A model generated the notes under the pieces. It was given only the letters and a program-made list of their open reading frames with translations. It did not search any database and had not been told where the DNA came from. From the NCBI GenBank assembly GCA_021805825.1, contig JAJZEC010000036.1:1-41442 (forward strand): DNA of 41,442 nucleotides. The letters run 5' to 3'. Below are positions 1 to 18,273 of the stretch, in pieces. Position numbers and translations under genes: made by a program. This stretch comes from Pseudomonadota bacterium (GTDB taxonomy: Bacteria > Pseudomonadota > Gammaproteobacteria > Burkholderiales > Burkholderiaceae_C). Numbering within the stretch: the first letter of the stretch is position 1; the number at the start of each line of letters is the position of its first letter.

Positions 1-2
1 GG

Positions 3-1598
3 CAGGCCCTGGGCGGCCAAGTGTTCGACGTACTCGGCAAGCTGGTGTTCGACGGGCGCCCATTGCGGGAGCTTCTGCTCGACGCTATCCGCTACGGCGA
101 GGAACCCGAGGTCAAGGCGCGCCTGACGCGCGCGATCGATGGAGCCGTCGACCGGGACGGACTGCGTGCGCTGCTCGACGAGCACGCCTTGACCCCCACG
201 GTCATGGATGCGGCCCGTGTCGCCCAGATCCGCGACGACATGCAGCGCGCCGACGCCCGCCGCCTGCAGCCCCACTACATCGAATCCTTCTTCCTGGAAG
301 CCTTCAAACTCCTGGGTGGCACCGCCCGCCAGCGCGAGCATCGACGCTACGAGGTCACCCATGTCCCCGCACCTGTCCGCGGCCGCGATCGGCAGATAGG
401 CCTCGTCGAGCCGGTTTTGCCTCGCTATGAGCGCATCGCCTTCGAGAAGGACTTGATTGCCCCGCCTGGCCAAGCGCTGGCCGCTTTCGTCTGCCCTGGT
501 CATCCTCTGTTGGATGCCGTCATCGACATGACGCTGGAGCGCCACCGGGAACTGCTTCGTCGAGGGGCCGTGTTGGTCGACGACCGAGATGCCGGCATGT
601 CTCCCCGCGTGCTTATGTATCTGGAACACAGCATTCAGGATGCGGCTTCGACCCCTGCAGGCGATCGGCGTACGGTTTCGCGACGCATGCTTTACGTGGA
701 GATTGATTCTCAGGGGCAAGCGCACCACCTTCATTACGCACCGTACCTGGACTACAGGCCTCTCGCTGAAGGTGAGCCCTCCGTTGATGCGATCCTCGCG
801 CGGGCGGAGTCCCAGTGGATTGGTGCCGACATAGAGCGGCACGCCTTGACGTACGCGATCGGCAACGTAGTGCCAGAGCACCTTCAGGAAGTGCGCGGTC
901 AACGTCTGGCCTGGATCGACAAGACTCGTGCGGCGGTCAAGGACCGGCTCACCAAGGAGATCGCATACTGGGATCATCGAGCGCAGCAGCTCCAGCAACT
1001 CGAAGCAACTGGCCGCGCCAACGCCAAACTCAACTCGCAGGAAGCGCGCAGGCGCGCGGACGACCTGCAGGCGAGGCTTCAGAACCGGCTGCACCAATTG
1101 GATCTCGAGGCGCACATCACCGCTGTTCCACCGGTCGTCATGGGTGGCGTTGTCGTGGTTCCGGCTGGTCTCATTGCTGGAATGACGGGTCAGACGACCC
1201 GGACAGCAGCAGCAGGGGACACTCAAGCCTCTGCGGCCAAAGCCCGCGAGATCGTGATGGAAATCGAGCGAGGTTTGGGCTTCGAGCCCATCGCCCGAGC
1301 GTTCGAGAAACTGGGCTACGACATAGAGAGTCGAGATCCGCGCTCAGGCCACCTCCGCTTCCTTGAGGTCAAGGGCCGAGTTGAGGGGGCCGACACGGTG
1401 AGCGTGACGCGTAACGAAATCCTGTACTCGCTGAACAAGCCGGAGCAGTTCATCCTGGCGCTGGTCGAGTTCCTCGAGAGTGGCTCGCACAAAGCGCATT
1501 ACCTCCGACAGCCCTTCAACCGTGAGCCGGACTTCGGCGTTACCAGCGTCAACTATGACTTCGCAGAGCTGCTCCGCCGCGCCGAGGGGCCAACCTAG
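3..1598 (+). CDS. DUF3883 helicase-type defence protein, C-terminal part
   Basis: The frame is open from the first complete codon at position 3 with no start, so the gene is cut by the window edge. About 530 residues are visible. The C-terminal 110 or so residues look like DUF3883 (NO VEIN C-terminal-like): the Asp codon at 1320 in a GYDIES context and the EVK at 1365-1373 form a D...ExK pattern expected of a restriction-nuclease-like fold. The central part matches the C-terminal region of large SNF2/DEAD-type helicases carrying DUF3883, including a charged stretch around 930-1110 likely to be helical. The helicase motifs themselves would lie before the window. It is the first visible gene of an operon with a DUF1156 methylase and a DUF499 ATPase, as in known defence islands. 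Helicase identity is inferred from family and context; the DUF3883 part is seen directly. Confidence 0.8.
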   Translation, partial: QALGGQVFDVLGKLVFDGRPLRELLLDAIRYGEEPEVKARLTRAIDGAVDRDGLRALLDEHALTPTVMDAARVAQIRDDMQRADARRLQPHYIESFFLEAFKLLGGTARQREHRRYEVTHVPAPVRGRDRQIGLVEPVLPRYERIAFEKDLIAPPGQALAAFVCPGHPLLDAVIDMTLERHRELLRRGAVLVDDRDAGMSPRVLMYLEHSIQDAASTPAGDRRTVSRRMLYVEIDSQGQAHHLHYAPYLDYRPLAEGEPSVDAILARAESQWIGADIERHALTYAIGNVVPEHLQEVRGQRLAWIDKTRAAVKDRLTKEIAYWDHRAQQLQQLEATGRANAKLNSQEARRRADDLQARLQNRLHQLDLEAHITAVPPVVMGGVVVVPAGLIAGMTGQTTRTAAAGDTQASAAKAREIVMEIERGLGFEPIARAFEKLGYDIESRDPRSGHLRFLEVKGRVEGADTVSVTRNEILYSLNKPEQFILALVEFLESGSHKAHYLRQPFNREPDFGVTSVNYDFAELLRRAEGPT

Positions 1599-1634
1599 TA
1601 CGCCCGCAGACAAAACCAAATCCAGGAGATCGCA

Positions 1635-1913
1635 GTGTCCGGCGATATTGAGCCAACAAACCAGGCCAAGCTGGCCCTGACACGCCTCAAGGCCTGGATG
1701 GCCTCGAGGGTCGAGCCGGTTGCTCGGACTGCCCACGCCCAGGAGTGGATGCGCTGTCTGGCGGAAGAACACGCACGCAATGGCTTGATGCGCTACTCGC
1801 TTGATGAGCAGGCGCAGAAATTCACCGCCTGCCCTACACCATCGATTCGCCTACATCCCCACCCGACCAGCTCGATCTGTTCGGACGATCCTTTCTGGAT
1901 CCACATCACATGA
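1635..1913 (+). CDS. Small defence-operon protein, probably frameshifted
   Basis: A GTG start at 1635 lies 6 bp after AGGAG (1624-1628). The 92-codon frame ends in TGA at 1911-1913, overlapping the methylase ATG as ATGA, which suggests translational coupling. Residues 1-63 look like a genuine charged helical protein ([38 protein letters not shown]). The last 29 residues do not look protein-like. Moving one base back at the AAATTC around 1818-1823 gives a plausible continuation, HRLPYTID, followed by DQLDLFG at 1865-1885. QLDLF matches the beta-sliding-clamp-binding consensus QL[SD]LF. A one-base deletion is the simplest explanation. The alternative frame then runs without a stop into the methylase frame. 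The family is not recognised. Either the annotated 92-residue product or a shifted or fused product could be real. Confidence 0.55.
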
Positions 1914-4900
1914 CTGTCACACGCAAGAAGCTGATCGAAGTTGCACTCCCGCTAGACGCCATCAATGCGGCCAGTGCGCGCGAGAAGAGTATCCGCCACG
2001 GGCATCCCAGCACGCTGCACCTTTGGTGGGCGCGGCGCCCGCTGGCTGCGGCGCGTGCGGTCATCTTTGCGCAGATGGTCGACGACCCGTCGACCTACGT
2101 CGATACGCTGCTGCGGGATCCGGCGCTTGAGCGGCGCGCCAAGCGCGAGCTGAAGGACCGTCAGGCCTTGTGGCGGCGCCGGCAGGAGGCCTACGCTGCT
2201 GCGCAGGCCAAAGGCGATGCCACGGTGCACGCCCCCGGTGAGCCACCAACCCTCGAGGGATGTGCCGCCGACCTGGAGCGCGAGCGCCTGTTTGACATCA
2301 TTCGCGCACTAGTGCAGTGGGAAAACACCACTAATGAGACGGTGCTGCAGGCCGCGCGCGACGAGATCTGGCAGAGCTGGCGCCGGGCCTGCGCCGACAA
2401 CGCCGACCACCCACGCGCCGCCGAGCTGTTCCGTCGCGACAAGCTGCCTGCCTTTCACGACCCATTCGCCGGCGGTGGCGCGCTGCCGCTCGAGGCGCAG
2501 CGCCTGGGCCTAGAAGCTCACGCCACCGACCTGAACCCCGTTGCTGTGCTGATTAACAAGGCGATGATCGAGATTCCGCCGAAGTTCGCTAGCCGACCGC
2601 CCGTAAACCCCGTGTCGCGCAAACAGATGGCGCACGGCGGAAGCTGGCGTGGCGCGCAAGGCCTGGCTGAGGACGTGCGCTACTACGGCCAATGGATGCG
2701 CGACGAGGCGGAGAAGCGCATCGGAGCCCTCTATCCTAAGGTGACGGTAACTGAGGCGATGGTGAAGGTGCGACCGGACCTTAAGACCTATCAGGGCCGT
2801 GAGCTCTCAGTCATCGCCTGGCTGTGGACGCGTACCGTGAAGAGCCCCAACCCTGCGTTCGCTGATGTGGACGTGCCGTTGGCTTCGACCTTCCTGCTGT
2901 CGACCAAGGTGGGCAAGGAGGCGTATGTCGAGCCAGTGTTCGAGGGCCGAGGCTTTCGATTCATGGTCAAGGTAGGGAAGCCCAAGGACGCAAGCGCGAC
3001 AAAGAGCGGAACGAAGCTAGCGCGCGGGGCTAACTTTTGGTGTTTGATGTCAGGAACACCGATTGCCTCGGATCACATTTACGGCGAGGCAAATGCAGGC
3101 CGAATGGGCGCTCGACTAATGGCGATAGTGGCGGAAGGCGATCGGGGGCGTGTCTACCTGACACCAACCGCTGAACAAGAAGCGGCCGCGCGCCAGGCTC
3201 ACCCGGAGTGGGCGCCTGAAGTAGCCATGCCAGAGAACCCGCGCTGGTTTTCACCGCCCTTGTACGGTCTGAAGAAGTACGGCGACCTCTTCACCCCCCG
3301 CCAACTCGTCGCTCTAACGACCTTCTCTGACCTCGTAGGCGAGGCGGCCGAGCGGGTTCGCCGTGACAGCCTAGGTACCGGAGCGGTCGAGGATAACCTG
3401 CCGCTGCAGGATGGTGGCCAGGGAAGTCGAGCGTACTCAGAGGCTGTCGCCACATATCTGTCATTTGCTGTTGACTACGCGGCAAACTACTGGTCGCAGA
3501 TCGCTACGCCTGCTGACGGTTTCATTAGAGGTACGTTCGCCCGCCAAGCTATCCCGATGACTTGGGACTACGCGGAGGCACCGCCTTTCGGCGGGACAAG
3601 CGGGAATTGGCTTGGTGGAGTCGAATGGGTATCAAAGGCACTCGACGCGCTGCCGGCTCGATTTGATGGAGTTGCGCAGCAGGCGGACGCAGCGCACCAA
3701 GCCGTTTCTGCAGCCAAGGTTGTTTCAACAGATCCCCCCTACTACGACAACATTGGCTATGCGGATCTGTCGGACTACTTTTATGTTTGGCTGCGCCGTG
3801 CATTGCGATCAGCTTTCCCCGACCTTTTTGTCACGCTCGCAGTGCCCAAGGCAGAGGAGTTGGTGGCTACGCCTTACCGACATGGGGGCAAGGAGAAGGC
3901 GGAGGCTTTCTTTCTGGACGGCATGACGCAGGCCATGCACCGCCTTGCTGCGCAGGCGCATCCTGGCTTTCCGGTCACAATCTACTACGCCTTTAAGCAG
4001 TCCGAGAGCGAAAGCCACGAAGGCACCGCCAGCACGGGGTGGGAAACGTTCCTGGATGCGGTCATCCACGCCGGCTTCGGCATCAGCGGTACCTGGCCGA
4101 TGCGTACTGAGCGGGCGGCACGATCCATCGGCATTGGGACGAACGCTCTTGCCTCTAGCATCATCCTCGTCTGCCGCCCACGTCCGGCGAATGCGCCCAC
4201 CGTGACTCGCCGCCAGTTCGTCTCCGCGCTGAAAGCCGAACTTCCGCAGGCACTGGCCCACCTGCAGCGCGGGAATATCGCTCCCGTGGATTTGGCACAA
4301 GCGGCCATCGGTCCAGGCATGGCAGTGTTTACGCGCTATGCAAAAGTGCTCGGCGCCGACGACAAACCTATGACCGTACGTGAGGCACTAGCCCTGATCA
4401 ACCAGACGCTGGACGAGGTGCTGGCCGAGCAGGAGGGTGACTTCGACGCCGACAGCCGCTGGGCCATCACTTGGTTCGACGAGAACGGTTTCGCTGACGG
4501 AGACTATGGCCGCGCCGAGCAGCTCAGCAAGAGCAAGAACACCAGCGTCGAGGGGATGCGGGAGGCCGGCATCTTGTCATCAGCGCGCGGCAAGGTGAGG
4601 CTGCTCAAGCCCGCTGAGTTGCCGGCCGACTGGGACCCCGCTACCGATACGCGCCTATCGGCTTGGGAGACCGTGCACCACCTTGTGCGTGCGCTGGAAT
4701 TCGGCGGCGACGCAGCGGCTGCTAAGCTGGTTGCGGGCCTCGGCGCCCGAGCCGAGGTGGCACGTGAACTGGCTTATCGCCTGTATCAACTGTGCGAGCG
4801 CCGCAAGCGCGCTGCCGAGGCCCTCGCCTACAACGCGTTGGTGTTGAGCTGGCCCGAGGTCGTGCGGCTGGCCTCAGACGCTGGGGTCAATCGATCACAG

Positions 4901-4939
4901 GCAACGGGACCGACGGACGCCGACCTCTTCGACGAGTAA
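1910..4939 (+). CDS. DUF1156 DNA methyltransferase (amino-methylating)
   Basis: The protein has 1009 residues. The N-terminus ([14 protein letters not shown], then [18 protein letters not shown]) is the DUF1156 signature. AdoMet-binding motif I is DPFAGGG at residues 184-190, and the catalytic motif DPPYYDN begins at residue 608, which marks an adenine-N6 or cytosine-N4 methylase. The family (COG1743) often has a zinc ribbon in the middle. Here the corresponding stretch around [17 protein letters not shown] keeps a single Cys, so the ribbon looks degenerate. Relatives occur in anti-phage islands, including as PglXI of BREX type 3, where they mark self DNA. The ATG overlaps the preceding small gene by 4 bp, and the next gene starts 17 bp after the stop. 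The C-terminus ends in DADLFDE. Its target sequence cannot be read from the gene. Confidence 0.9.
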
Positions 4940-4956
4940 CAAGGGAGAGTGCTGGG

Positions 4957-5319
4957 ATGGCTGCGAACCCCAGGTACCCGAGACCTTCGAACTTAAGCGC
5001 CAAGATTCGTCGCTCCTTGCTCGAAGCTGCCAGAGCCGAAGTGGCGCAAGCACCGTTTGCTCTGTCCGGGCGTAGTCACGAGCCTCTAGGCACGCTGGAT
5101 CGATGGATGGCTGCAGTCGTTCGGAGCATACGCCCGCCGAATGTCGTGATCCGCGGCGATGGGGCGAACAAGTATTACCTGCTGCGCATTTTCGGACGCG
5201 CGGCGGTTCATGTCTCGAAGCAGTTCGGCTGGCCTGCCCTAGCCGAATCCCGCGGAACCGCTTGGCGTCAGGACTTGACTTTGCTGCCAACCGATTTCTC
5301 TCAAATCACGAAGACGTAA
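4957..5319 (+). CDS. Hypothetical 120-residue defence-operon protein
   Basis: This gene fits between the methylase stop (4939) and the DUF499 gene (5327), leaving gaps of only 17 and 7 bp, so it is part of the operon. ATG 4957 follows AGGGAGAG (4942-4949). The same frame is open further upstream inside the methylase, but this start is the first with both an RBS and proper spacing. The protein is basic, with an Arg-rich helix near residues 16-30 (KIRRSLLEAARAEVAQ) and a WMAAVVRSIRPPNVVIRG stretch. I recognise no family, catalytic motif, signal peptide or membrane segment. A small accessory or adaptor subunit of the neighbouring methylase/ATPase system is possible from position alone. Confidence 0.75.
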   Translation: MAANPRYPRPSNLSAKIRRSLLEAARAEVAQAPFALSGRSHEPLGTLDRWMAAVVRSIRPPNVVIRGDGANKYYLLRIFGRAAVHVSKQFGWPALAESRGTAWRQDLTLLPTDFSQITKT

Positions 5320-5326
5320 GCACACG

Positions 5327-8300
5327 ATGGCCATCACAAACCACGAACGCGTCGGCAAAGCGCTGGAGATTTTCCGCATTGGCATCGCGCCCTATGTCGA
5401 GCGTGAGGTGAAGTCGGCCGTGCAGTCAGGTGCACTCTCGACACAGGTGGTCAAGGGCTTCCTGGACGACCCGATGCTCGCGGACAAGTCTATCGGCGAG
5501 TACGACGTGTCGGCGCTGATGAAGCTGATGTGGGACAGCTGGAACGACGTGTTCAAGCGCACGCTCAGCTTCGCGCAGCGCAGCCTGGTTTCCGAGGTGA
5601 GGACGTTCCGGAACGACTGGGCGCATCAGCGACCCTTTTCCAGCGACGACACCGACCGCGCACTGGACTCTATGGAACGGCTGCTTACCGCCGTCTCGGC
5701 AGCCGAGGCTGAGGAAGTGCGGAAGCTGAAGCTTGAGCTGCGGCGCCTGGTGACTGACGAGCAAGTGCGCGGCGAGCGACGCAAGACTGCCGGCCTTCCC
5801 CTGGAGAGCGCCGCCAACGCGACGCTCAAGCCGTGGCGCGACCTGATCACGCCGCACCGCGACGTAGCTAGCGGCCAGTACCAGTCCGCCGAGTTCGCGG
5901 CCGACCTGTGGCAAGTGCATCTGAACGAAGGCTCGGATGAATACCGCAAGCCCGAGGAGTTCTTCCGCCGCACCTATCTCACCGAAAGCTTGCGCCGCCT
6001 GCTGACCGGCGCGCTACGGCGCGTCGCCAACGGCAACGGCGACCCGGTAGTGCAGCTGCAGACCAACTTCGGCGGCGGTAAGACGCACTCGATGCTGGCG
6101 CTGTACCACCTGTTCTCAGGCTCCGATGCGGCAAAGCTGCTGGGAGTAGACGAGCTGCTGGCAGCAGCGGGCGTGGCCAAGCTGCCGAGCGCGCGGCGCG
6201 TGGTGCTGGTGGGCAACAAGATCTCGCCGGGCAACCCTTCGCGCAAGCCCGACGGCACGGTAGTGCGCACGCTGTGGGGGGAACTAGCCTGGCAGCTCGG
6301 CGGGGCTGAGGCTTTCGCCCGCGTGGCGGAGGACGACGCCCGCGCCACCAGCCCGGGCGATGCGCTGCGCGAGCTGTTCAACACCTATGGGCCCTGCATC
6401 GTGCTGGTGGATGAGTGGGTGGCCTACGCCCGCCAGCTGCACGACCAAAAGGACCTGCCCGGTGGCGACTTCGAGACCCAATTCAGCTTTGCCCAGGCTT
6501 TGACGGAGTCGGCGAAGCTGGCCAAGCACTGCCTTTTGGTGGTGTCGCTGCCCGCATCCGACACAGCCGAATCGCCGAACTCGGTGGGTGACGACGAGGA
6601 GGTGGGTGGCGAGCGAGGGCGGGCGGCACTGCTGCGACTGCGCAACGTTATTGGCCGCCTGGATGCGCCATGGACCCCTGCCACTGCTGAAGAGGGGTTC
6701 GAAATCGTGCGCCGCCGGCTGTTCGAGCCGATGCTAGACCCGGAGCTGTTCAAGCAGCGAGACGTGGTGGCGCGAGCTTTTTTTGAGTTGTACTTGGCAC
6801 AGCGGGCGGAGTTCCCGGCTGAATGCGCGGACACAGACTATGAGAAGCGCCTGCGATCGGCATATCCGGTCCATCCGGAGGTTTTCGACCGCCTTTATCG
6901 TGACTGGGGCTCGTTACCAAAGTTCCAGCGTACGCGCGGCGTTTTGCGGCTGATGGCCTCGGTCATCCACTGCCTGTGGGAGCGCGGTGACCGCAACCCG
7001 CTGATCATGCCGGCCACGCTGCCGATCGATGACGCGCGTGTGCGCGACGAGCTGACGCGCTATCTGTCAGACAGCTGGAAGCCGATTATCGAGAGCGACG
7101 TGGACGGTCCAAACTCGCTGCCATTGCGCATTGACGGTGAAGCGCCGAACCTGGGCAAACTTTCAGCCACTCGGCGCGTGGCGCGCACCATCTACTTGGG
7201 ATCAGCCCCGCTGGCAGCGGCCGCCAACATGGGCCTGGATGACCGTCGAGTGAAGTTGGGCAGTGCGATGCCGGGCGAAGCTGTGCCAATCTTCGGCGAT
7301 GCGATGCGACGGCTAGCCGCAGCTGCAACGTATTTGTACCAGGACGGCACGCGCTACTGGTACAGCCTACAGCCAACGGTGGCCAAGCTGGCGCGCGACC
7401 GGGCCAACCAGCTGGCGCGTGAACCCGACAAGGTGGCGCACGAACTGGAAGAGAGGCTACGCGCCGATCTGACGCAGCGTGGTGAGTTCGAGCGTGTGGT
7501 CGTCATGCCAAATTCCGGCGCCGACGTGCCCGACGAGTACGAAGCGCGCCTGGTCGCGCTGGGCCCACAGCATGGCTACAGCAAGGTACAGGGCAACGCA
7601 GCCGAAGCCGCTGCCAAGGCCTTGCTGGAGTCCCGCGGCAGCTCCCCGCGGCTGTATCGCAACTCGTTGGTGTTCGCCGTCCCCGATGCGACTCGCCTGC
7701 AAGACCTCGAGGCGGCGGTGCGCGACTTCCTGGCTTGGCAGTCTATCGTCGCCGAGGCAACTGAGCTGAACCTCACGCCGCACCAGGCGCGGCAGGCTGA
7801 ATCGCAGCTCAGGACGGCGGGCAGCACTGTGCAGGCCCGCCTGCCGGAAACCTACCAGTGGCTGCTAGTGCCGGTGCAGGCGACGCCGCAAGACCCAGTA
7901 AGCTGGGAGCCGCTGAAGCTTTCGGGCAGTGACCCTCTTGCTTTACGTGCGCTGAAGAAGCTGCGTAGCGAGGACGTGCTGCTGACGGGATTAGGCGGCA
8001 CCCGGCTGCGGATGGAGCTGGATCGCGTGCCCTTGTGGCGCGGCGACCATGTGACCCTTACCCAACTTGTGCAGGACTTTGCGACCTACCTTTACCTGCC
8101 CAAGCTAATGCGGCCAGCCGTGCTGGCGGACGCTGTGCGAGCGGGCGTGGGCCTGCTCACGTGGGAGCAAGACACGTTTGCTTATGCAGAGGGCTACGAC
8201 GCAGAAGGTCAACGCTACCGTGGTCTTCAGTCAAGTACAGATCTGGCTTTGAGATCGGACGATGCTGGGCTCCTGGTCAAGCCGCAGGTGGCGCGCCAGC

Positions 8301-8692
8301 AGATTGACCGGGAAATGCAACAGCGAGGACTGCCTCAGGACACAGGTGACACGTCCGCCAGCACTGGGCCCGGCGGTACTGTGCCTGGCGGGACGGGCAC
8401 TGGACCGGGCGCCGGCGCGACCGACCGAAGCTCGATCGAAGATCGCGCACCGACACGGCCAAAGCGCTACTACGGCTCCGCGGTCCTCAATGCGGAGCGC
8501 GTCGGACGAGACGCCGGCCAGATCGCTAGCGAGGTGATCGCCCACCTGACAGGCTTAGTGGGAGCGCAGGTTCGGGTGACACTGGAGATCGAAGCGTGGA
8601 TCCCGAATGGGGTGCCTGCGAACGTCGTGAGAATCGTGACTGAGAACGGGAGGACGTTAAAGTTCGACCCCCACGGCTTCGAGAGCGAATAA
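5327..8692 (+). CDS. DUF499 ATPase with N-terminal Swt1-like HEPN domain
   Basis: The protein has 1121 residues. Residues about 1-130 look like a Swt1-type HEPN domain, with RNDWAH (an Rx4H motif, the usual HEPN RNase active site) in the FRNDWAHQRPFSS segment. A large P-loop ATPase follows: Walker A TNFGGGKTH at residues 246-254 (Lys252) and Walker B CIVLVDEW at 357-364 (Asp362-Glu363). The fold and length match DUF499 proteins found beside DUF1156 methylases in anti-phage loci. A flexible Gly/Pro/Thr-rich linker (about 8347-8425) precedes a conserved C-terminal domain starting near KRYYGSAVLN. The HEPN-ATPase arrangement suggests an effector or sensor that could cleave RNA on infection. That role is inference; the domains are seen. 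It is co-transcribed with its neighbours. Confidence 0.9.
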   Translation: MAITNHERVGKALEIFRIGIAPYVEREVKSAVQSGALSTQVVKGFLDDPMLADKSIGEYDVSALMKLMWDSWNDVFKRTLSFAQRSLVSEVRTFRNDWAHQRPFSSDDTDRALDSMERLLTAVSAAEAEEVRKLKLELRRLVTDEQVRGERRKTAGLPLESAANATLKPWRDLITPHRDVASGQYQSAEFAADLWQVHLNEGSDEYRKPEEFFRRTYLTESLRRLLTGALRRVANGNGDPVVQLQTNFGGGKTHSMLALYHLFSGSDAAKLLGVDELLAAAGVAKLPSARRVVLVGNKISPGNPSRKPDGTVVRTLWGELAWQLGGAEAFARVAEDDARATSPGDALRELFNTYGPCIVLVDEWVAYARQLHDQKDLPGGDFETQFSFAQALTESAKLAKHCLLVVSLPASDTAESPNSVGDDEEVGGERGRAALLRLRNVIGRLDAPWTPATAEEGFEIVRRRLFEPMLDPELFKQRDVVARAFFELYLAQRAEFPAECADTDYEKRLRSAYPVHPEVFDRLYRDWGSLPKFQRTRGVLRLMASVIHCLWERGDRNPLIMPATLPIDDARVRDELTRYLSDSWKPIIESDVDGPNSLPLRIDGEAPNLGKLSATRRVARTIYLGSAPLAAAANMGLDDRRVKLGSAMPGEAVPIFGDAMRRLAAAATYLYQDGTRYWYSLQPTVAKLARDRANQLAREPDKVAHELEERLRADLTQRGEFERVVVMPNSGADVPDEYEARLVALGPQHGYSKVQGNAAEAAAKALLESRGSSPRLYRNSLVFAVPDATRLQDLEAAVRDFLAWQSIVAEATELNLTPHQARQAESQLRTAGSTVQARLPETYQWLLVPVQATPQDPVSWEPLKLSGSDPLALRALKKLRSEDVLLTGLGGTRLRMELDRVPLWRGDHVTLTQLVQDFATYLYLPKLMRPAVLADAVRAGVGLLTWEQDTFAYAEGYDAEGQRYRGLQSSTDLALRSDDAGLLVKPQVARQQIDREMQQRGLPQDTGDTSASTGPGGTVPGGTGTGPGAGATDRSSIEDRAPTRPKRYYGSAVLNAERVGRDAGQIASEVIAHLTGLVGAQVRVTLEIEAWIPNGVPANVVRIVTENGRTLKFDPHGFESE

Positions 8693-8711
8693 CCTGACTC
8701 CCCCGCCAAAC

Positions 8712-9170
8712 ATGGACGTTTTCTACTACTGGAAGGACATTACGAGCGACCTGAAGGCTGGGCGGGTTGGCCGCTTCCGCTCAGACAAGGGCAGGCTTGA
8801 GGAACTGCATGCCGGGTACCCAGACCACGTCTGGGTTTTCAAGACCCCGCCAGGGCGAAAGGGGCAGCTACAGCTGAAGGCTCGGCTCAGTTGGTCCAAC
8901 GTCTCTCTATCCTCGTTCAAGCCCGAGCCGGGTGTCGGTTACATCTTTTACGACCCCGACCAAGCTTCGTCGGTATGGTTCGACAGCAGCGAAACCGATA
9001 CCGCAATCGACACTGTTACCCGATGGGCTGGCAAGCACTTTCCGAGCGCCGTTCAGGCCAATTTCCAGGGCGTGAACGGGCAGCACCCCATGCGGGGACA
9101 AGTGCTCAAGGAACTGGAAGCCATTGCTGCGGACCTACCGAGCAGATCGTTCCGGACCGCGGTTGAATGA
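8712..9170 (+). CDS. Hypothetical 152-residue protein, last gene of defence operon
   Basis: ATG 8712 lies 19 bp after the DUF499 stop, with no good Shine-Dalgarno, so translation may depend on coupling. The protein is compact and soluble, rich in aromatics (VFYYWKDI, HVWVFKTPPGRKG, YIFYDPDQASSVWFD), with a C-terminal helix QVLKELEAIAADLPSRS. There is no membrane segment or signal peptide. I do not recognise the family. NCBI uses DUF3780 for a partner of similar loci, but this protein is shorter than I would expect and I cannot confirm a match. Its position at the end of the operon and codon use like the other island genes suggest an accessory component of the same system. Confidence 0.75.
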   Translation: MDVFYYWKDITSDLKAGRVGRFRSDKGRLEELHAGYPDHVWVFKTPPGRKGQLQLKARLSWSNVSLSSFKPEPGVGYIFYDPDQASSVWFDSSETDTAIDTVTRWAGKHFPSAVQANFQGVNGQHPMRGQVLKELEAIAADLPSRSFRTAVE

Positions 9171-9456
9171 GCGGCTCGATCGAATGGGCAAAGGTCGTAG
9201 CGGGACAACGTGGGTGCGCCTTCCGTTGATGCTGCCCACAGCAGGGAGCATGCAAAGCGGGCCAACATCGATCACGCCCAGAGTGACTGTAGATGTGTAC
9301 AGTTTTTGGATTTCGCGCTCTTCGCTCTTCACGCGCATCGCTTCTCATAGTCGAAACGGGTTGCTTCATGGCACCGTCGAGCTTGCGGCGAGATGCGATT
9401 GATATGATCGAAGTTGGGCCCAACTTCGATCGCTTTTTGGCCTAACTTCTTTCCTG
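9171..9456. other. Non-coding right end of the island
   Basis: No convincing gene is present in this 286-bp stretch, and its GC content is clearly lower than on either side. It holds three copies of an 11-bp repeat close to the comM junction (9410-9449) and otherwise shows nothing I can identify. No integrase fragment or tRNA piece is visible. Confidence 0.7.
9406..9431. repeat. Perfect 26-bp palindrome and 11-bp repeats at island end
   Basis: GATCGAAGTTGGG (9406-9418) is followed directly by its exact reverse complement (9419-9431). The element GGCCYAACTTC occurs inverted at 9410-9420, direct at 9417-9427 and direct again at 9439-9449 (one mismatch), only 8 bp before comM homology resumes. 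As RNA the palindrome would form a strong hairpin followed by GCTTTTTGG (9432-9440), so it could terminate the defence operon. The repeated 11-mers so near the junction could instead be recombinase or transposase binding sites at the element end. Both uses are compatible. Confidence 0.75.
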
Positions 9457-10104
9457 CCCAGGCCGGGTGAAGTCTCGCTCGCCCACCATGGGGTGCTGTT
9501 CCTCGATGAACTGCCCGAATTCGATCGCCGCGCCCTCGAGGGGCTGCGCGAGCCGCTGGAAAGCGCGCGGGTGCACCTGGCGCGCGCGGCCCAGCGCGCC
9601 GAACTTCCGGCGGCCTTCCAGATGGTCGCGGCGATGAACCCCTGCCCCTGTGGCAAGCTGGGGGATCCCGCGCATGCATGCAGCTGCAGCAGCAAGCAGC
9701 TGCGGCGCTATCGGGCACGGCTTTCAGGCCCGCTGCTCGACCGCATCGACCTGCGCGTGGAGGTCTGCGCACTGCCCGCCGCCGAACTGCTGGAACTGCC
9801 GCCCGGGGAGGCCAGTTCGCGGGTGGCCGAACGCGTGCGCCGGGCCGCGCTGCTGCAGCAGCAACGCCAGGCCGGCGCCAACGCCGCGCTGGATGCCCAG
9901 GGGCTGCAGCGCCACTGCCGCCTGGAGCGCGCGCTGCGCACCTGGCTGGCCGGCACGCTCGAGCGCCTGGGTGCGTCGGCGCGCGCCACCCACCGCGTGC
10001 TGCGGGTGGCGCGCACCATCGCCGACCTCGGCGGCAGCGCCGCGGTCGAACGCGAACACCTGGCCGAGGCGCTGCAGCTGCGACGCGCCCTTGGCCAGGC
10101 CTGA
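9457..10104 (+). pseudogene. comM: comM 3' remnant (YifB/ComM ATPase C-terminal part)
   Basis: Homology starts at PRPGEVSLAHHG and continues through Walker B (GVLFLDELPEF), the ComM motif AAMNPCPCG, the arginine-finger region (LLDRIDLRVEV) and the C-terminal helical domain, ending at 10104. About 215 codons remain. The N-terminal Lon-like and Walker A portions of a roughly 500-residue ComM are missing, because the defence island joins in the middle of the ATPase domain. The frame extends back to a TGA at 9400 but has no sensible start; the first candidate is GTG 9493 without an RBS. ComM is a hexameric helicase promoting branch migration during natural transformation. The lesion should inactivate it here unless a second copy exists. 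It is convergent with metY, 24 bp away. Confidence 0.9.
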
Positions 10105-12287: not shown

Positions 12288-12301
12288 AATATCGCGATAT
12301 T
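12288..12301. promoter_or_regulatory. Candidate operator between araC-type gene and efflux operon
   Basis: AATATCGCGATATT is a perfect 14-bp palindrome in the 129-bp spacer between the divergent regulator (start 12250) and the outer-membrane factor gene (start 12380). On the minus strand TAATAT (12298-12303) inside it could serve as a -10 element. It is the only AT-rich symmetric site in the spacer, so it is a reasonable binding site. AraC proteins usually bind direct repeats, so the cognate regulator may be another protein. Confidence 0.45.
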
Positions 12302-12379
12302 ACTTGGCCGAATCCAGCAACTTTGCCATGGGGCAAGACCCTACCATCCGGAATGCTCTCGCATCCCCAGGAAGCCTTC

Positions 12380-13870
12380 ATGTCGCGCTGCCCCGTCCCC
12401 CTGCGTGTCGCACCGAGCCTGCTGGCGGCGGCGCTGCTCGCCGGCTGCACCACCGTGGGCCCGGATTTCCACGCCCCGCCGGCGCCGCGCGTCGCGCGCT
12501 ACACCGCCGGCATGCTGCCGCAGCGCACGGCCTCGGCACCCGGCCACCTCGGCGCGCCGCAGCAATGGATGCACAGCGCGGCGGTCGACCGGGAATGGTG
12601 GAAGTCCTTCGCATCGCCGCGGCTGGACGCACTCGTGCAGCAGGCCCTGCGCAACAACCCGACGCTGGAGGCCGCCCGCGCCACGCTGCGCCAGGCGCAG
12701 GAGACCTACGCGGCGCAGGCCGGATCGACTCTGTACCCGACGATCAGCGCCAAGCTCGGCGCCAGCCGCAGCGAAACCAACGGCGCGTCGGTCGGCACGA
12801 GCAGCTCGCAGCGCATCTACAACCTGTACAACGCCGGGATCGCGGTCAACTACAACCTCGACCTGTTCGGGGGCAATCGGCGCGCCCTGGAGGCCCTGGC
12901 CGCGCAGGCCGACTACCAGGCGTACCAGTTGGCCGGCGCGCGGCTGAGCCTGGCCGGCAATGTGGTCACGACGGCCTTCGCCCAGGCGCAGCTGCGGGCC
13001 CAGGTGGCGGCCACGCGGGCCATCGCGCGGGCACAGGCCGCCGAGCTGGCGATCACCGTCAAGCGTCTGCAACTGGGCGCTGCCTCGCGCGTCGACGTGC
13101 TCAGCCTGCGCACCCAGTATGAGCAGACCCTGGCCAGTCTGCCGCCACTGCGCAACAAGCTGCAGCAGGCCGACCACCTGCTGGCGCTGCTCGTCGGGCA
13201 GGCGCCCGGGCAGGCGCACATTCCCCGCTTCCGCCTGAGCGATTTCCGCTTGCCGCCACAGCTGCCGCTGGTCGTGCCCTCGCAGCTGCTGCGCCAGCGG
13301 CCCGACGTGCAGGCGTCGACCGCGCTGCTGCACGCGGCCACCGCGCAGTACGGGGTCGCGATATCGAGCCTGTATCCGCAGATCAACCTGAGTGCCACGC
13401 TGAGCACCGAGGCGCTGACCACGGGAGCGCTGTTCGGCCCGGGCAGCACCATCTGGAACCTGGCCGGGCAGCTCGCCCAACCCTTGTTCAACGCCGGGCT
13501 GCACGCAGCCAAGAACGCCGCCGAGGCCAACCTGCAGGCCGCCGGGGCGAACTACCGCGCCACCGTGCTGCAGGCGCTGCGCAACGTGGCCGACGCGCTG
13601 CGTCAGCTGGACAACGACGCGCAGGCGCTGCGCGCGCAGGCCGCGGCCGACAGCGCGGCGCAGCAGTCCCTGCATCTGGTGGAACAGCAATACCACCTGG
13701 GCGCGGCCAGTTACCTGCAGTTGCTGACCGCGCAGCAGCAGGCGCAGAACGCGCGCATCGGGCTGCTGGCGGCCCAGGCGGCGCGCCTGGCCGACACCGC
13801 GGCGCTGTACCAGGCGATGGGCGGCGGCGTGCTGGCACACACCACAACCGGGAAGGACAAGCCCGCCTGA
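12380..13870 (+). CDS. Outer-membrane efflux lipoprotein, NodT/OprM family
   Basis: The protein has 496 residues. It is the outer-membrane channel of a tripartite RND efflux system. The N-terminal signal ends in a lipobox (LLAG-C, Cys23), so it is a lipoprotein. The body has two OEP repeats with long heptad-like helices: residues after LRNNPTLEAARATLRQAQETYAAQ, and the mirror copy around AAEANLQAAGANYRATVLQALRNVADAL. The usual NodT pattern LDLFGGNRRALEA and the LAQPLFNAG motif are present. ATG 12380 follows AGGAAG at 12369-12374; an earlier ATG at 12353 in frame lacks an RBS. It is the first gene of an operon with a membrane-fusion protein (13980) and an RND pump (15151). The outer-membrane factor coming first is unusual but not rare. 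Confidence 0.92.
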   Translation: MSRCPVPLRVAPSLLAAALLAGCTTVGPDFHAPPAPRVARYTAGMLPQRTASAPGHLGAPQQWMHSAAVDREWWKSFASPRLDALVQQALRNNPTLEAARATLRQAQETYAAQAGSTLYPTISAKLGASRSETNGASVGTSSSQRIYNLYNAGIAVNYNLDLFGGNRRALEALAAQADYQAYQLAGARLSLAGNVVTTAFAQAQLRAQVAATRAIARAQAAELAITVKRLQLGAASRVDVLSLRTQYEQTLASLPPLRNKLQQADHLLALLVGQAPGQAHIPRFRLSDFRLPPQLPLVVPSQLLRQRPDVQASTALLHAATAQYGVAISSLYPQINLSATLSTEALTTGALFGPGSTIWNLAGQLAQPLFNAGLHAAKNAAEANLQAAGANYRATVLQALRNVADALRQLDNDAQALRAQAAADSAAQQSLHLVEQQYHLGAASYLQLLTAQQQAQNARIGLLAAQAARLADTAALYQAMGGGVLAHTTTGKDKPA

Positions 13871-13923
13871 GACCCCGGCGCGCTGGCTCTCTCCCGATGC
13901 GCGGCGCGTCCGCGCGACAAGAC

Positions 13924-13945
13924 CTGCGCCGCCCCGGCGGCGCAG
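13924..13945. other. Intercistronic hairpin in efflux operon
   Basis: CTGCGCCGCC (13924-13933) and its exact reverse complement (13936-13945) are separated by 2 bp in the 109-bp gap between the outer-membrane factor and the membrane-fusion protein genes. No T-tract follows, so this is not a classical terminator. It may stabilise or attenuate the transcript between the first and second genes. Confidence 0.5.
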
Positions 13946-13979
13946 ATTCGAGGAATGGAATCACCGAACGATAACGCAC

Positions 13980-15128
13980 ATGTCGACGACCGCACGAACC
14001 ACCCTGCGCATGATCATCATGCTTGTCATCGCGGCCGCGCTGATCGGCGGCGTGACCTGGTTTCACGGCTTCAAGGGCCGCATGATCGCCAAGTACATGA
14101 AGGGCATGGCGCACATGCCGCAGACGGTGTCCACCGCGGTGGCGCAGCTGCAGACCTGGCAGCCCACGGTGCAGGCGCTGGGCACGCTGCGCGCCAGCCG
14201 TCAGGCCAGCCTGGGAGCGCCGGTGGGGGCGGTGGTGACGGCCATCCACTTCCGCTCGGGCGAGCATGCGCGTGCTGGGCAGGATCTGGTCGAGCTCGAT
14301 CCGGCGCCGCTGCGCGCGCAGCTGCAGCAGCAGCAGGCACAGCTGCACCTGGCACAGCGCAACCTGGCGCGCGACCGCGCGCAGTACGCGGTGCATGCGA
14401 TCAGCCAGGCGGTGGTCGACACCGATGAGGCCACGGTGCAGGCCGACGAGGCCGGCATCGCCGCGCAGAAGGCGCTGCTCGCGCAGCATGTGATCTCGGC
14501 GCCCTTCGCCGGGCGCCTGGGGCTACGCCAGGTCGACCTCGGCCAGTACCTGCCTCCCGGAGGCGTCGCGGTGACCCTGCAGAAGCTCGACCCCATGCTG
14601 ATCGACTTCAACGTGCCGCAAAGCCGCATTGACCTGATTCGCGTGGGCATGAAGGCCGAAGTGCGCACCAGCGCGGTTCCGGGCAAGACCTTCGTCGGCA
14701 AGGTCACCGCCATCGAACCCCAGGTCGACCCGACCACGCGCAACCTCACGGTGCGCGCGCGCATCGACAACCCCGGTGAGCAACTGCTCCCGGGGGTGTT
14801 CGCCAGCGTGCGCCTGCAGCAGGGAGGGCCCCGGCAGTACGTGACCCTGCCCAACGCCGCGGTGGTCTACAACCCCTACGGCGACACGGTGTACGTGGTC
14901 AGGCAGGAAGGCAAGGGCGCCGACGGCAAGCCGCGCCTGGTGGCCGAACAGCGCTTCATCACCGTGGGCCCGCAGCGCGGAAACCAGGTCGCGGTTCTCA
15001 AAGGCCTGAAGCCCGGCGACACCGTGGTCACCTCGGGCCAGCTCAAGCTGCGCAACGGCACCCCGCTGCTGGTGAACAACAGCGTCGAGCCCAGCGACAG
15101 CCCCGACCCGACGGTTCCCGACTCCTGA
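13980..15128 (+). CDS. RND efflux membrane-fusion protein (periplasmic adaptor)
   Basis: The protein has 382 residues. One N-terminal membrane anchor (MIIMLVIAAALIGGVTWF) is followed by a split lipoyl domain (GAVVTAIHFRSGEHARAGQDLVELD and the matching QHVISAPFAGRLGLRQVDLGQYL). Between the lipoyl halves is a coiled-coil hairpin rich in Gln/Ala (RAQLQQQQAQLHLAQRNLARD), then beta-barrel and membrane-proximal domains. It links the pump to the outer-membrane channel. The start ATG 13980 has no good Shine-Dalgarno. A better one (AGGAA, 13951-13955) precedes an out-of-frame ATG at 13955, so initiation may be weak or coupled. No alternative in-frame start is available. The RND pump gene begins 22 bp after the stop. 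Confidence 0.92.
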   Translation: MSTTARTTLRMIIMLVIAAALIGGVTWFHGFKGRMIAKYMKGMAHMPQTVSTAVAQLQTWQPTVQALGTLRASRQASLGAPVGAVVTAIHFRSGEHARAGQDLVELDPAPLRAQLQQQQAQLHLAQRNLARDRAQYAVHAISQAVVDTDEATVQADEAGIAAQKALLAQHVISAPFAGRLGLRQVDLGQYLPPGGVAVTLQKLDPMLIDFNVPQSRIDLIRVGMKAEVRTSAVPGKTFVGKVTAIEPQVDPTTRNLTVRARIDNPGEQLLPGVFASVRLQQGGPRQYVTLPNAAVVYNPYGDTVYVVRQEGKGADGKPRLVAEQRFITVGPQRGNQVAVLKGLKPGDTVVTSGQLKLRNGTPLLVNNSVEPSDSPDPTVPDS

Positions 15129-15150
15129 TCCGCACCTGCGAAGCCTCAGC

Positions 15151-18100
15151 ATGAACAAGAAATTCACCGATCTATTCATCGAGCGCCCGGTGCTGGCGAC
15201 CGTGGTCGCGCTGGTGATCCTGGTGCTCGGGCTGCGTTCGGCCGGGCTGTTGCCCGTGCTGCAGTATCCCTTCACGGAGAACGCGGTGGTCACGGTCACC
15301 ACCGCCTACCCGGGCGCCTCGCCGCAGACCGTGGCTTCCTTCATCACCACGCCGCTGGAAAACTCCATCGCGCAGGCCAACGGCATCGACTACATGACCT
15401 CCACCAGCGTGCAGGGGGTCAGCACCATTACCGTCAACCTGCGGCTGAACTACGACCCCGACAAGGCGCTGACCGAGATCAACACCAAGGTCAACGCGGT
15501 GATCAACCAGCTTCCGGCCGCGGCGCAGAAGCCCACGCTGACGGTGTCCATCGGGCAGACGATCGATGCCATGTACATGGGCTTCTACAGCACGGTGCTG
15601 CAGCCCAACCAGATCACCGATTACCTGACGCGCTCGGTGCAGCCCAGGCTGCAGGCCATCCCCGGGGTGCAGACGGCCGAGCTCATCGGGGCGAAGAACT
15701 TCGCGCTGCGCGCCTGGCTGAACCCGCGCAAGCTGGCGGCCTACGGCCTGACCGCCGCCGACGTCTATTCAGCGCTGGCCGCCAACAACTACATCACCGC
15801 CGCCGGCCACACCAAGGGCCAGATGGTGCAGATCAACCTGGCCGCCAACACCGACCTCAAGTCCCTGTCCGAGTTCCGCAACCTGGTGGTCAAGAGCGTG
15901 GGCGACCAGGTCGTTCGCCTGGACGACGTCGCCCGCGTCAGCATGGGTGCGGACGACTACCAGACGCAGGTCGCCTTCGACGGCAAGTCCTCGGTGTTCA
16001 TCGGCATCCAGGTCGCCCCCAGCGCCAACCTGCTCGACGTGGTCAAGCGGGTGCGCGCCGCCTTCCCGGGTATCCAGGCGCAGCTGCCGCAGGGCCTGAG
16101 CGGGCGCATCGTCTACGACTCGACCAAGTTCGTCAACGCATCGATCAACGACGTCATCCAGACGCTCATCGAGGCGGTGCTGATCGTCGCCGCCGTGGTG
16201 TTCGTGTTCCTCGGGTCGCTGCGTTCGGTGGTGGTGCCGCTGGTGGCCATTCCGCTGTCGATCATCGGCACCTTCACGGTCATGCTGGCGCTGGGCTATT
16301 CGATCAACCTGCTGACCCTGCTGGCCATCGTGCTGGCCATCGGCCTGGTCGTCGATGACGCCATCATCATCGTCGAGAACGTCAGCCGCCACCTCGAGGA
16401 GGGCATGACGCGCAAGGACGCCGCGGTGCGCGCCGCCCGCGAACTGGCCAACCCCATCATCGCGATGGCGGTGGTGCTGGTGGCGGTGTACGTGCCGATC
16501 GGCTTCATGAGCGGCCTGACCGGCGCGCTGTTCACCGAGTTCGCCTTCACCCTGGTGGGCACGGTGGTGATCTCGGCCATCATCGCGCTGACGCTGTCGC
16601 CGATGATGTGCTCGCGCCTGCTCAAGGCGCCCGATCCGCAGAGCCACAAGCTGCAGGATCGGCTGGTGCTGTTCCTCGATCGAAGCTTCGAGCGCCTGCA
16701 CGGACGCTACGAGCGCCTGCTGCACGGCTCGCTGAACTACCTGCCGGTGACCGCGGTCATGGGCCTGATCGTGCTGGGCTCGATCTACTTCCTCTACGTC
16801 AGCTCGACCTCGGAGCTCGCGCCGCAGGAGGATCAGGGCGTGCTGATCACGGTGGCCTTCACCAATCCGACGTCCACGCCCGAGGCGCGCGAGATGGTGT
16901 CGCAGCAGGTCTACCACGTGTTCCACGGATTCCGGCAGACCGACCACGTGTTCCAGATCAATTCCCCCACGCAGGTTCTCGGGGGCATGGTGCTCAAGCC
17001 GTGGGACGAGCGCAAGGCGACGACCCAGCAGCTGCAGCCGATCCTGCAGCGCGACCTGAGCCATATCGCGGGCGCGCAGATCGCGGTGTTCCAGCCGCCG
17101 TCGCTGCCCGGTGCGCGCGGGCTGCCGGTGCAGTTCGTGCTGACCACCACCGACCCCGTGGACAGGCTGTACACGGTATCGCAGGACTTCCTGCACGCGG
17201 CGCTGCGGACGGGCGACTTCGCCTTCATGCAGAGCGACCTGCGCGTCGACCTGCCGCAGGCCACCCTGGTCGTCGACCGCAACATGGCCGCGCAGCTGGG
17301 CCTGACGATGGAACAAATCGGCTCGTCGATCTCGGCCATGATGGGCGGCGGCTACGTGAACTTCTTCAACCTCGATGGCCGCTCCTACAAGGTCATCCCG
17401 CAGGTGCAGCGACGCTTCCGCCTGACCACCTCCCAGCTGCTGGACTACTACGTGCGCACGTCCAGCGGCAGGATGGTTCCCCTGTCCACCGTCGTGCACC
17501 TGCAGAACTCGGTGCAGCCGGAAACCATCAACCACTTCCAGCAGGCCAACTCGGCGACCCTGAGCGCGGTGCCCATTCCCGGGGTGTCGCAGGGCAAGGC
17601 TCTGGCCGACCTGAAGGCGCTGGCCCAGCGCACCCTGCCCTCGGGCTACAGCTTCGACTATGCCGGGCCGTCGCGGCAGTACGTGCAGGAGTCGGGGGGG
17701 CTGCTGCTGACCTTCGGCTTCGCGCTGGTGATCATCTTCCTCGCGCTGGCCGCGCAGTTCGAAAGCTTCCGCGATCCGATCATCATCCTGGTCTCGGTGC
17801 CGATGGCGATCTCGGGCGCGCTGCTGTTCGTCAACCTGGGGGTCGGCGGAGCGACGCTGAACATCTACAGCGAGGTCGGACTGGTCACCCTGATCGGGCT
17901 GATCTCCAAGCACGGCATCCTGATCGTGGAGTTCGCCAACAACCTGCAGCGCGAGGGCCGCAGCAAGCGCGAGGCCATCGAGCACGCGGCGGGCATGCGG
18001 CTGCGCCCGATCCTGATGACCACCGCGGCCATGGTGCTGGGCGTGATTCCGCTGATCGCGGCCACCGGCGCCGGCGCCGAGAGCCGCTTCAACATGGGCC

Positions 18101-18273
18101 TGGTGATCGCCTCCGGGCTGGCCATCGGCACCCTGTTCACCCTGTTCGTCGTTCCGGCGGTGTACATGATGCTGGCCGCCGACCACAGCCACGAGGCGCG
18201 CGCGCAGGCCTTGCGCGAAGCCGAGGCGGCCGAGGCGGCGATGCTGCACCGCGGCGCGCACGACGGCGGCTGA
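15151..18273 (+). CDS. RND multidrug efflux pump, HAE1 family
   Basis: The protein has 1040 residues, the usual RND inner-membrane transporter length. There is one N-terminal membrane helix after FIERPVLATVVALVILVLG, then a large periplasmic loop, helices 2-6, a second periplasmic loop and the C-terminal helices. Proton-relay residues are visible: Asp402-Asp403 in GLVVDDAIIIVEN (TM4) and Lys920 in GLISKHGILIVEF (TM10). The sequence resembles the MexI/MexF-like branch more than CzcA metal pumps, which carry a different TM4 motif. Substrate is unknown; a drug, dye or small organic compound is likely. It is the third gene of the operon and would assemble with the two upstream products in the envelope. 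Confidence 0.93.
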   Translation: MNKKFTDLFIERPVLATVVALVILVLGLRSAGLLPVLQYPFTENAVVTVTTAYPGASPQTVASFITTPLENSIAQANGIDYMTSTSVQGVSTITVNLRLNYDPDKALTEINTKVNAVINQLPAAAQKPTLTVSIGQTIDAMYMGFYSTVLQPNQITDYLTRSVQPRLQAIPGVQTAELIGAKNFALRAWLNPRKLAAYGLTAADVYSALAANNYITAAGHTKGQMVQINLAANTDLKSLSEFRNLVVKSVGDQVVRLDDVARVSMGADDYQTQVAFDGKSSVFIGIQVAPSANLLDVVKRVRAAFPGIQAQLPQGLSGRIVYDSTKFVNASINDVIQTLIEAVLIVAAVVFVFLGSLRSVVVPLVAIPLSIIGTFTVMLALGYSINLLTLLAIVLAIGLVVDDAIIIVENVSRHLEEGMTRKDAAVRAARELANPIIAMAVVLVAVYVPIGFMSGLTGALFTEFAFTLVGTVVISAIIALTLSPMMCSRLLKAPDPQSHKLQDRLVLFLDRSFERLHGRYERLLHGSLNYLPVTAVMGLIVLGSIYFLYVSSTSELAPQEDQGVLITVAFTNPTSTPEAREMVSQQVYHVFHGFRQTDHVFQINSPTQVLGGMVLKPWDERKATTQQLQPILQRDLSHIAGAQIAVFQPPSLPGARGLPVQFVLTTTDPVDRLYTVSQDFLHAALRTGDFAFMQSDLRVDLPQATLVVDRNMAAQLGLTMEQIGSSISAMMGGGYVNFFNLDGRSYKVIPQVQRRFRLTTSQLLDYYVRTSSGRMVPLSTVVHLQNSVQPETINHFQQANSATLSAVPIPGVSQGKALADLKALAQRTLPSGYSFDYAGPSRQYVQESGGLLLTFGFALVIIFLALAAQFESFRDPIIILVSVPMAISGALLFVNLGVGGATLNIYSEVGLVTLIGLISKHGILIVEFANNLQREGRSKREAIEHAAGMRLRPILMTTAAMVLGVIPLIAATGAGAESRFNMGLVIASGLAIGTLFTLFVVPAVYMMLAADHSHEARAQALREAEAAEAAMLHRGAHDGG

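Follow-up and report, generated by a model that had tools for sequence, protein, structure and literature searches.

The contig JAJZEC010000036.1 of a member of the Burkholderiaceae_C (assembly GCA_021805825.1) was analyzed over its whole length of 41,442 nucleotides (nt) and is called the window below; it is contig C91 of the 110 in the 3.35-Mb assembly. The genes at its left end are those of Hma, also named the Type-1 BREX-related (BR; BREX, bacteriophage exclusion) system, and represent a member of this already described system with ordinary variation in cargo. With a probability of about 85%, the locus is a restriction-modification-like phage defense operon of the HEPN-fused Hma (Type-1 BR) subtype, which a transposon-like island inside comM carries at its right end. 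The identity of the genes, the integrity and conservation of their motifs, the variable slots between them and the ends of the island are reported here, and the carriage of an hma operon by a comM island is new.

Genes and motifs of the hma operon

All three proteins were best matched by the Hma models of PADLOC, at 610 bits for HmaA, 1527 bits for HmaB and 1094 bits for HmaC, and the hits lie in the order A-B-C on the same strand. Only the C-terminal half of hmaA is present (3 to 1598, forward strand; 531 amino acids [aa] in length), matching positions 644 to 1171 of 1176 in model PDLC00659. This piece consists of the post-helicase region and a predicted nuclease domain of the PD-(D/E)XK type (DUF3883/NOV_C; NOV_C E value, 6.6e-17) with D440 and E455-V-K457. 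The hmaB gene (1910 to 4939, forward strand; 1009 aa; PDLC00660) encodes an amino-group DNA methyltransferase of the DUF1156 type (2.2e-27), with DPFAGGG at residue 184 and DPPY at residue 608. In the product of hmaC (5327 to 8692, forward strand; 1121 aa), a HEPN_Swt1 domain is fused to a DUF499 AAA+ ATPase, and the match to PDLC00662 starts at residue 166. The HEPN_Swt1 domain covers residues 11 to 124 (112 bits, 1.7e-32, above the cut-off) and holds R95-x4-H100, while the ATPase part (DUF499, 9.2e-24) has the Walker A motif GGGKT at 249 to 253 and Walker B at D362-E363. NCBIfam gave partial matches, below cut-off, to its anti-phage DUF1156 and DUF499 models. A search of Protein Data Bank sequences with HmaC found no match.

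A first-pass annotation, made from the sequence alone, had already placed these genes and motifs correctly (DUF3883/NOV_C, DUF1156 with DPFAGGG and DPPY, and HEPN Rx4H with Walker A). It had also called the first gene helicase type. The NOV_C/DUF3883 domain of that gene was recovered, but the helicase motor is not visible because the contig end cuts hmaA.

The motifs were compared with those of relatives, namely 80 hma loci (the best 80 of at least 564 confirmed) and 9 further loci. HmaB was matched in 15 other genomes, which supplied these 9 loci, while 6 were left out as fragments or distant (e.g., G232, G070, G079, G209, G333 and G133). Of the 369 genomes of the class, 16 had HmaB at an E value of 1e-100 or better, the window's own included. 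Relatives whose alignment misses a site are not part of the count for that site. On this basis, conservation was complete: D440 of HmaA in 66/66 and E455-V-K457 in 67/67, D184-P-F of HmaB in 88/88 and D608-P-P-Y in 89/89, and R95 together with H100 of the HEPN domain in 38/38. The Walker A residues G249-G250-G251-K252-T253 and the Walker B pair D362-E363 of HmaC were each kept in 75/75.

This gene combination is already known, since Hma (Type-1 BR) is in print, as is the fusion of HEPN with DUF499. The fusion was described in 2013 in an operon with restriction-modification components and a DUF3883-fused SNF2 helicase (PMC3710099), and an operon of methylase, DUF499, helicase and nuclease was described again in 2020 (PMC7641849). 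The name Hma dates from 2021 and was given to a helicase-methylase-ATPase system of three genes with 1,638 occurrences in 26 phyla (PMC8565338). A 2026 survey renamed it the Type-1 DUF499-centered BR system and gave the HEPN-fused ATPase for 1370 of the 2446 taxa with Type-1 BR (PMC12839542). The first-pass suggestion of a separate methylation-plus-RNase system stands in that the locus joins a methylase and a nuclease with a HEPN RNase domain in one defense operon and is distinct, as far as tested, from BREX and from DISARM (defense island system associated with restriction-modification), but the system is not a new one.

Published work (PMC12839542) and knowledge of the families, with which the intact motifs agree, lead to the following proposed course of events. 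HmaB would methylate a DNA motif and so mark self, and HmaC, as an AAA+ ATPase, would assemble a complex that scans DNA lacking the mark. This unmarked DNA would then be degraded by the helicase-nuclease HmaA through its C-terminal DUF3883 nuclease. The HEPN domain of HmaC may act as a second effector, in which RNA cutting would halt the cell if the attack on DNA fails.

Insertion of the operon in comM

The C-terminal half of comM (Mg-chelatase-like) follows the operon at 9461 to 10104 on the forward strand. Its N-terminal half lies on another contig, C109, and ends there at position 3589. C109 has 4020 bases and also carries the left piece of the island, 431 bases of it before the contig breaks off. 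A right terminal inverted repeat, which reads TGGGCAG... inward, is located at 9435 to 9460 on the reverse strand, and its partner is at C109:3590-3614 (L135). The sequences at the two inner edges, TGGGCAGCAAATAAATTA and TGGGCAGGAAAGAAGTTA, form an imperfect inverted repeat. The alignment score of the inverted repeat was 30, whereas 100 shuffles averaged 19 and did not exceed 27. The repeat pattern common to both ends, with 2 mismatches allowed at most, has no further occurrence in the 3.35 Mb; because the pattern was derived from the two ends, the informative point is only that it is rare elsewhere. The 5-bp target duplication GGCCG is present at 9461 to 9465 and at C109:3585-3589, and comM reads in frame over the flanks with a single copy of GGCCG. 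The inverted repeats, the duplication and the in-frame comM flanks together show an inserted island with the operon at its right end. The island ends at 9460, near position 9456, where the first-pass annotation had ended its operon region.

A 12-bp terminator-like palindrome with a T run (9405 to 9432, forward strand) lies between the last gene of the operon, S2, and the island end, and has the longest stem of the five such sites in the region. Among the loci then examined, the C-terminal half of comM was adjacent to hma only in the window's own sequence. The island end inside comM is an unusual carrier for a named, widespread defense system, and if the island moves, defense would be gained at the cost of a competence gene.

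Downstream of comM, at 12300 to 18273, the open reading frame lists show efflux pump genes by eye, i.e., an outer-membrane factor, a membrane-fusion protein and a transporter of the resistance-nodulation-division type.

Variable slots and small genes

Of the 80 relatives, 55 carry the three genes as A-B-C on a single strand. In 22, the stretch examined includes just one or two of them, and in 3 all three are present but differently arranged. Intervals between the genes were taken from 90 loci (80 plus 9 plus the window, which is counted). More than 300 nt separate A from B in 54 of the 68 loci where this could be measured, and B from C in 35 of 77; in the window itself, the intervals between matches are 315 nt (A-B) and 391 nt (B-C). 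Nine hand-picked slot proteins, eight from B-C slots and one from an A-B slot, were scanned with family models. The B-C cargo included a Polbeta nucleotidyltransferase with a HepT-like RNase (L119), a DUF4325 protein (L118), AAA_15/AAA_21 ATPases (L038 and L040, the latter also with DUF4276), a DUF1828 protein (L047) and a protein without family (L122). The A-B slot of L049 contained a dynamin-like GTPase. The B-C intervals of three HEPN-type loci (L032, L054 and L119) are similar to each other: the Polbeta/HepT pair is that of L119, similar frames are present in L054, and the nucleotidyltransferase part is present in L032.

In the window, the B-C slot is occupied by S1, a frame of 120 aa (4957 to 5319, forward strand), and hmaC is followed by S2, of 152 aa (8712 to 9170, forward strand). 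As the first-pass annotation had noted for both, the gaps around them are below 20 bp (17, 7 and 19 nt). Neither gave a significant match to a family model in Pfam, PADLOC, NCBIfam or PHROGs, and neither was found in viral contigs. A third frame, ORF92 (open reading frame 92; 1635 to 1913, forward strand), between hmaA and hmaB, goes unmentioned in the first-pass text.

Coding potential was judged by codon usage against 100 true-frame windows (lowest score, -0.059) and 500 wrong-frame windows (95% point, 0.096). S1 scored -0.062, the best of its six frames (next, -0.272). This lies just under the lowest true-frame window, so S1 may or may not be a gene. S1 was matched neither in 72,556 plasmid records nor in 50,697 phage records, and 300 genomes of the order gave two matches, its own and one weak match (E value of 4.7e-4) with an internal stop. 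S2 scored 0.066, the best of its six frames (next, -0.207) and below the 95% point of the wrong-frame windows. S2 is nevertheless probably a gene, for which its conservation elsewhere is better evidence than codon usage. Single-sequence AlphaFold models of S1 and S2 had a mean pLDDT (predicted local distance difference test score) of 41 and 46, respectively, and were not used for a fold search.

S2 belongs to a small Burkholderiaceae family of lone genes, with 32 to 38% identity to five loci. Matches were found in five plasmid records of Caballeronia and Paraburkholderia (four well covered, one over 24% only) and in 3 of the 300 genomes of the order, its own included. Five of the seven outside places were examined over 19.5 to 24.4 kb each (L025, L026, L027, L113 and L114), and no hma gene was found in these five loci at an E value of 1e-3. 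Within about 4.5 kb of the S2 homologues, the genes contained a single similar pair, L027 versus L113 (38% over 172 residues). Because this is the sole similar pair besides S2, the family is without a common neighbor. Its members are proteins of about 150 aa that start with MDIF(F/Y)(H/Y)W and are found in Burkholderiaceae and relatives of the order. The profile of the S2 family had no match among Protein Data Bank sequences.

The stop of ORF92 overlaps the start of hmaB (ATGA). A coding signal is present in its first 65 codons and is then lost. The best match of ORF92 to the slot genes, at its N terminus to the start of the dynamin-like gene of L049, had an E value of 0.05 and is suggestive only. 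On these sequence features, ORF92 is possibly the remnant of a cargo gene. An upstream extension of hmaB, from a QLDLF stretch in the hmaB frame before the ATG, was considered and rejected; reading by eye found nothing comparable in the upstream frames of relatives.

In the proposed scheme, S1 and ORF92 would each fill a slot of the operon with variable cargo, and S2 would be an unrelated passenger between hmaC and the end of the island. S1 and S2 are candidates for screens of embedded genes.

Alternative readings and comparison with known systems

A fragment of BREX type 3 or DISARM, with the core genes further left, would be extremely improbable and is strongly disfavored. The DNA to the left of the window is unread, and BR and type-3 BREX proteins are homologous (PMC12839542), but all three proteins prefer the Hma models. 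The DUF1156 methylase, taken in the first-pass annotation as a sign of BREX type 3, does not serve as one: DUF1156 marks the BR methylases, from which those of type-3 BREX differ at the N terminus (PMC12839542). That annotation had seen no PglZ, BrxC, DrmA, DrmB or DrmC. PglZ had no match in the window's own assembly, the same search being positive in 2 of 14 control genomes, and likewise there was none for MZB/DUF1998, for which 8 of the 14 controls were positive. We take the MZB/DUF1998 domain to stand for DrmB. BREX type 3 and DISARM were rejected on the Hma model scores and on these two negative searches; BrxC, DrmA and DrmC were not searched separately. In a reading as a decayed Hma locus, an event that broke the contig would have truncated hmaA and left the other genes as a nonfunctional remnant. 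The assembly yielded neither the N-terminal half of HmaA, which would hold both helicase lobes, nor the remaining island. Searches for it with the PADLOC model and with the N-terminal half of relative L049 gave only short generic-helicase matches (32 to 35% identity in the second search). The hmaA open frames of 24 relatives span 1148 to 1255 codons from stop to stop. Therefore, the system is not shown to be intact, and the locus may be broken. ORF92, with its coding signal ending after about 65 codons, also resembles a gene fragment. Against decay, HmaB, HmaC and the remainder of HmaA are free of stops and keep the examined catalytic motifs, the break falls at the contig end, which fits an assembly gap, and the left island piece on C109 breaks off too. 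We regard decay as unlikely.

The small genes allow two further readings. S1, S2 or both could be functional components of an hma variant, with a role such as inhibiting the HEPN RNase or conferring specificity. They share the strand and the short spacing of the operon, the terminator-like palindrome stands only after S2, and the S2 protein is conserved in other bacteria. However, neither gene has a homologue at an E value of 1e-5 in the 80 related hma loci (best S1 match, 0.6). Conservation in neighboring loci had been set beforehand as the refuting test, and its absence counts against membership in the system. The S2-family profile, which recovers S2 itself at 3.9e-71, gave no hit among the 21,282 frames from 89 hma loci. 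One S2-like match in the hma locus L121 (38%, residues 3 to 57, E value of 0.009 in nine loci) was taken as chance; it lies upstream of the C-terminal half of hmaA, on the hmaA strand and by position probably within hmaA, and the S2 profile gives it no support. Among HEPN-type relatives with a near-complete hmaB followed by hmaC (the window and L075, where hmaC is upstream of hmaB, excluded), the B-C interval exceeds 300 nt in 13/35 and is below 300 nt in 22/35, so nothing S1-like is needed in the latter. S2 homologues stand without hma in the five loci described above. The small genes are not conserved parts of the system in the loci examined, and a role as components is very unlikely. It is also quite unlikely, if slightly less so, that S1 and S2 are new single-gene defense or control modules which, with the HEPN-fused ATPase, form a multilayer cassette moved by a comM-targeting transposon. 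S1 would then be a module of the B-C slot and S2 a recruited member of the Burkholderiaceae orphan family.

The reading as an HEPN-fused Hma operon in a comM island is preferred, and several observations besides the missing half of HmaA weigh against it. No promoter-like site was found in the operon region, and its five terminator-like sites compare with 6.0 expected by chance, so a single transcript is suggested by gene spacing only. HmaB is a 5-methylcytosine methylase in PMC8565338 and an adenine methylase by the name of the PADLOC model, and because the two disagree, the modified base is left unsettled. No transposase of the Mu-transpos_C (TnsB/TniA) kind was found, but this search was silent in the controls too and gives nothing firm.

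Compared with Hma as defined in PADLOC in 2021, the window has the same three proteins in the same order and on the same strand (models PDLC00659, PDLC00660 and PDLC00662). It differs in the N-terminal HEPN domain of HmaC, which lies outside the PADLOC HmaC model, in the incomplete hmaA and in the two added small genes. With HEPN-fused Type-1 BR, it has in common the HEPN-DUF499 ATPase, the DUF1156 methylase and, for the helicase gene, the C-terminal PD-(D/E)XK domain; no systematic difference was seen, and the TUDOR and Snf2 helicase parts are hidden in the window by the contig end. The restriction-modification operons of the Ava_2192 type, with HEPN (Swt1/Abi2), DUF499 and SNF2/DUF3883 (Anantharaman 2013, PMC3710099), show the same fusion and neighbors and are tabled with an active HEPN domain; unlike in the window, small genes and an island context go unmentioned in the accessible parts of that paper.

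Hma-embedded candidates (HEC), likewise extra genes within hma operons, are credited by citing text to a 2024 preprint by Payne, and several are reported to be antiviral (PMC12988326). The 2023 PADLOC library, which may not hold all HEC models, gave no hit for S1, S2 or ORF92. In Acinetobacter, comM has a role in natural transformation, and AbaR islands split the gene (PMC7508600). The window shares with these the splitting of comM by a mobile island, but the visible part of its island carries the hma operon, and the island has TGGGCAG ends and is flanked by the GGCCG duplication.

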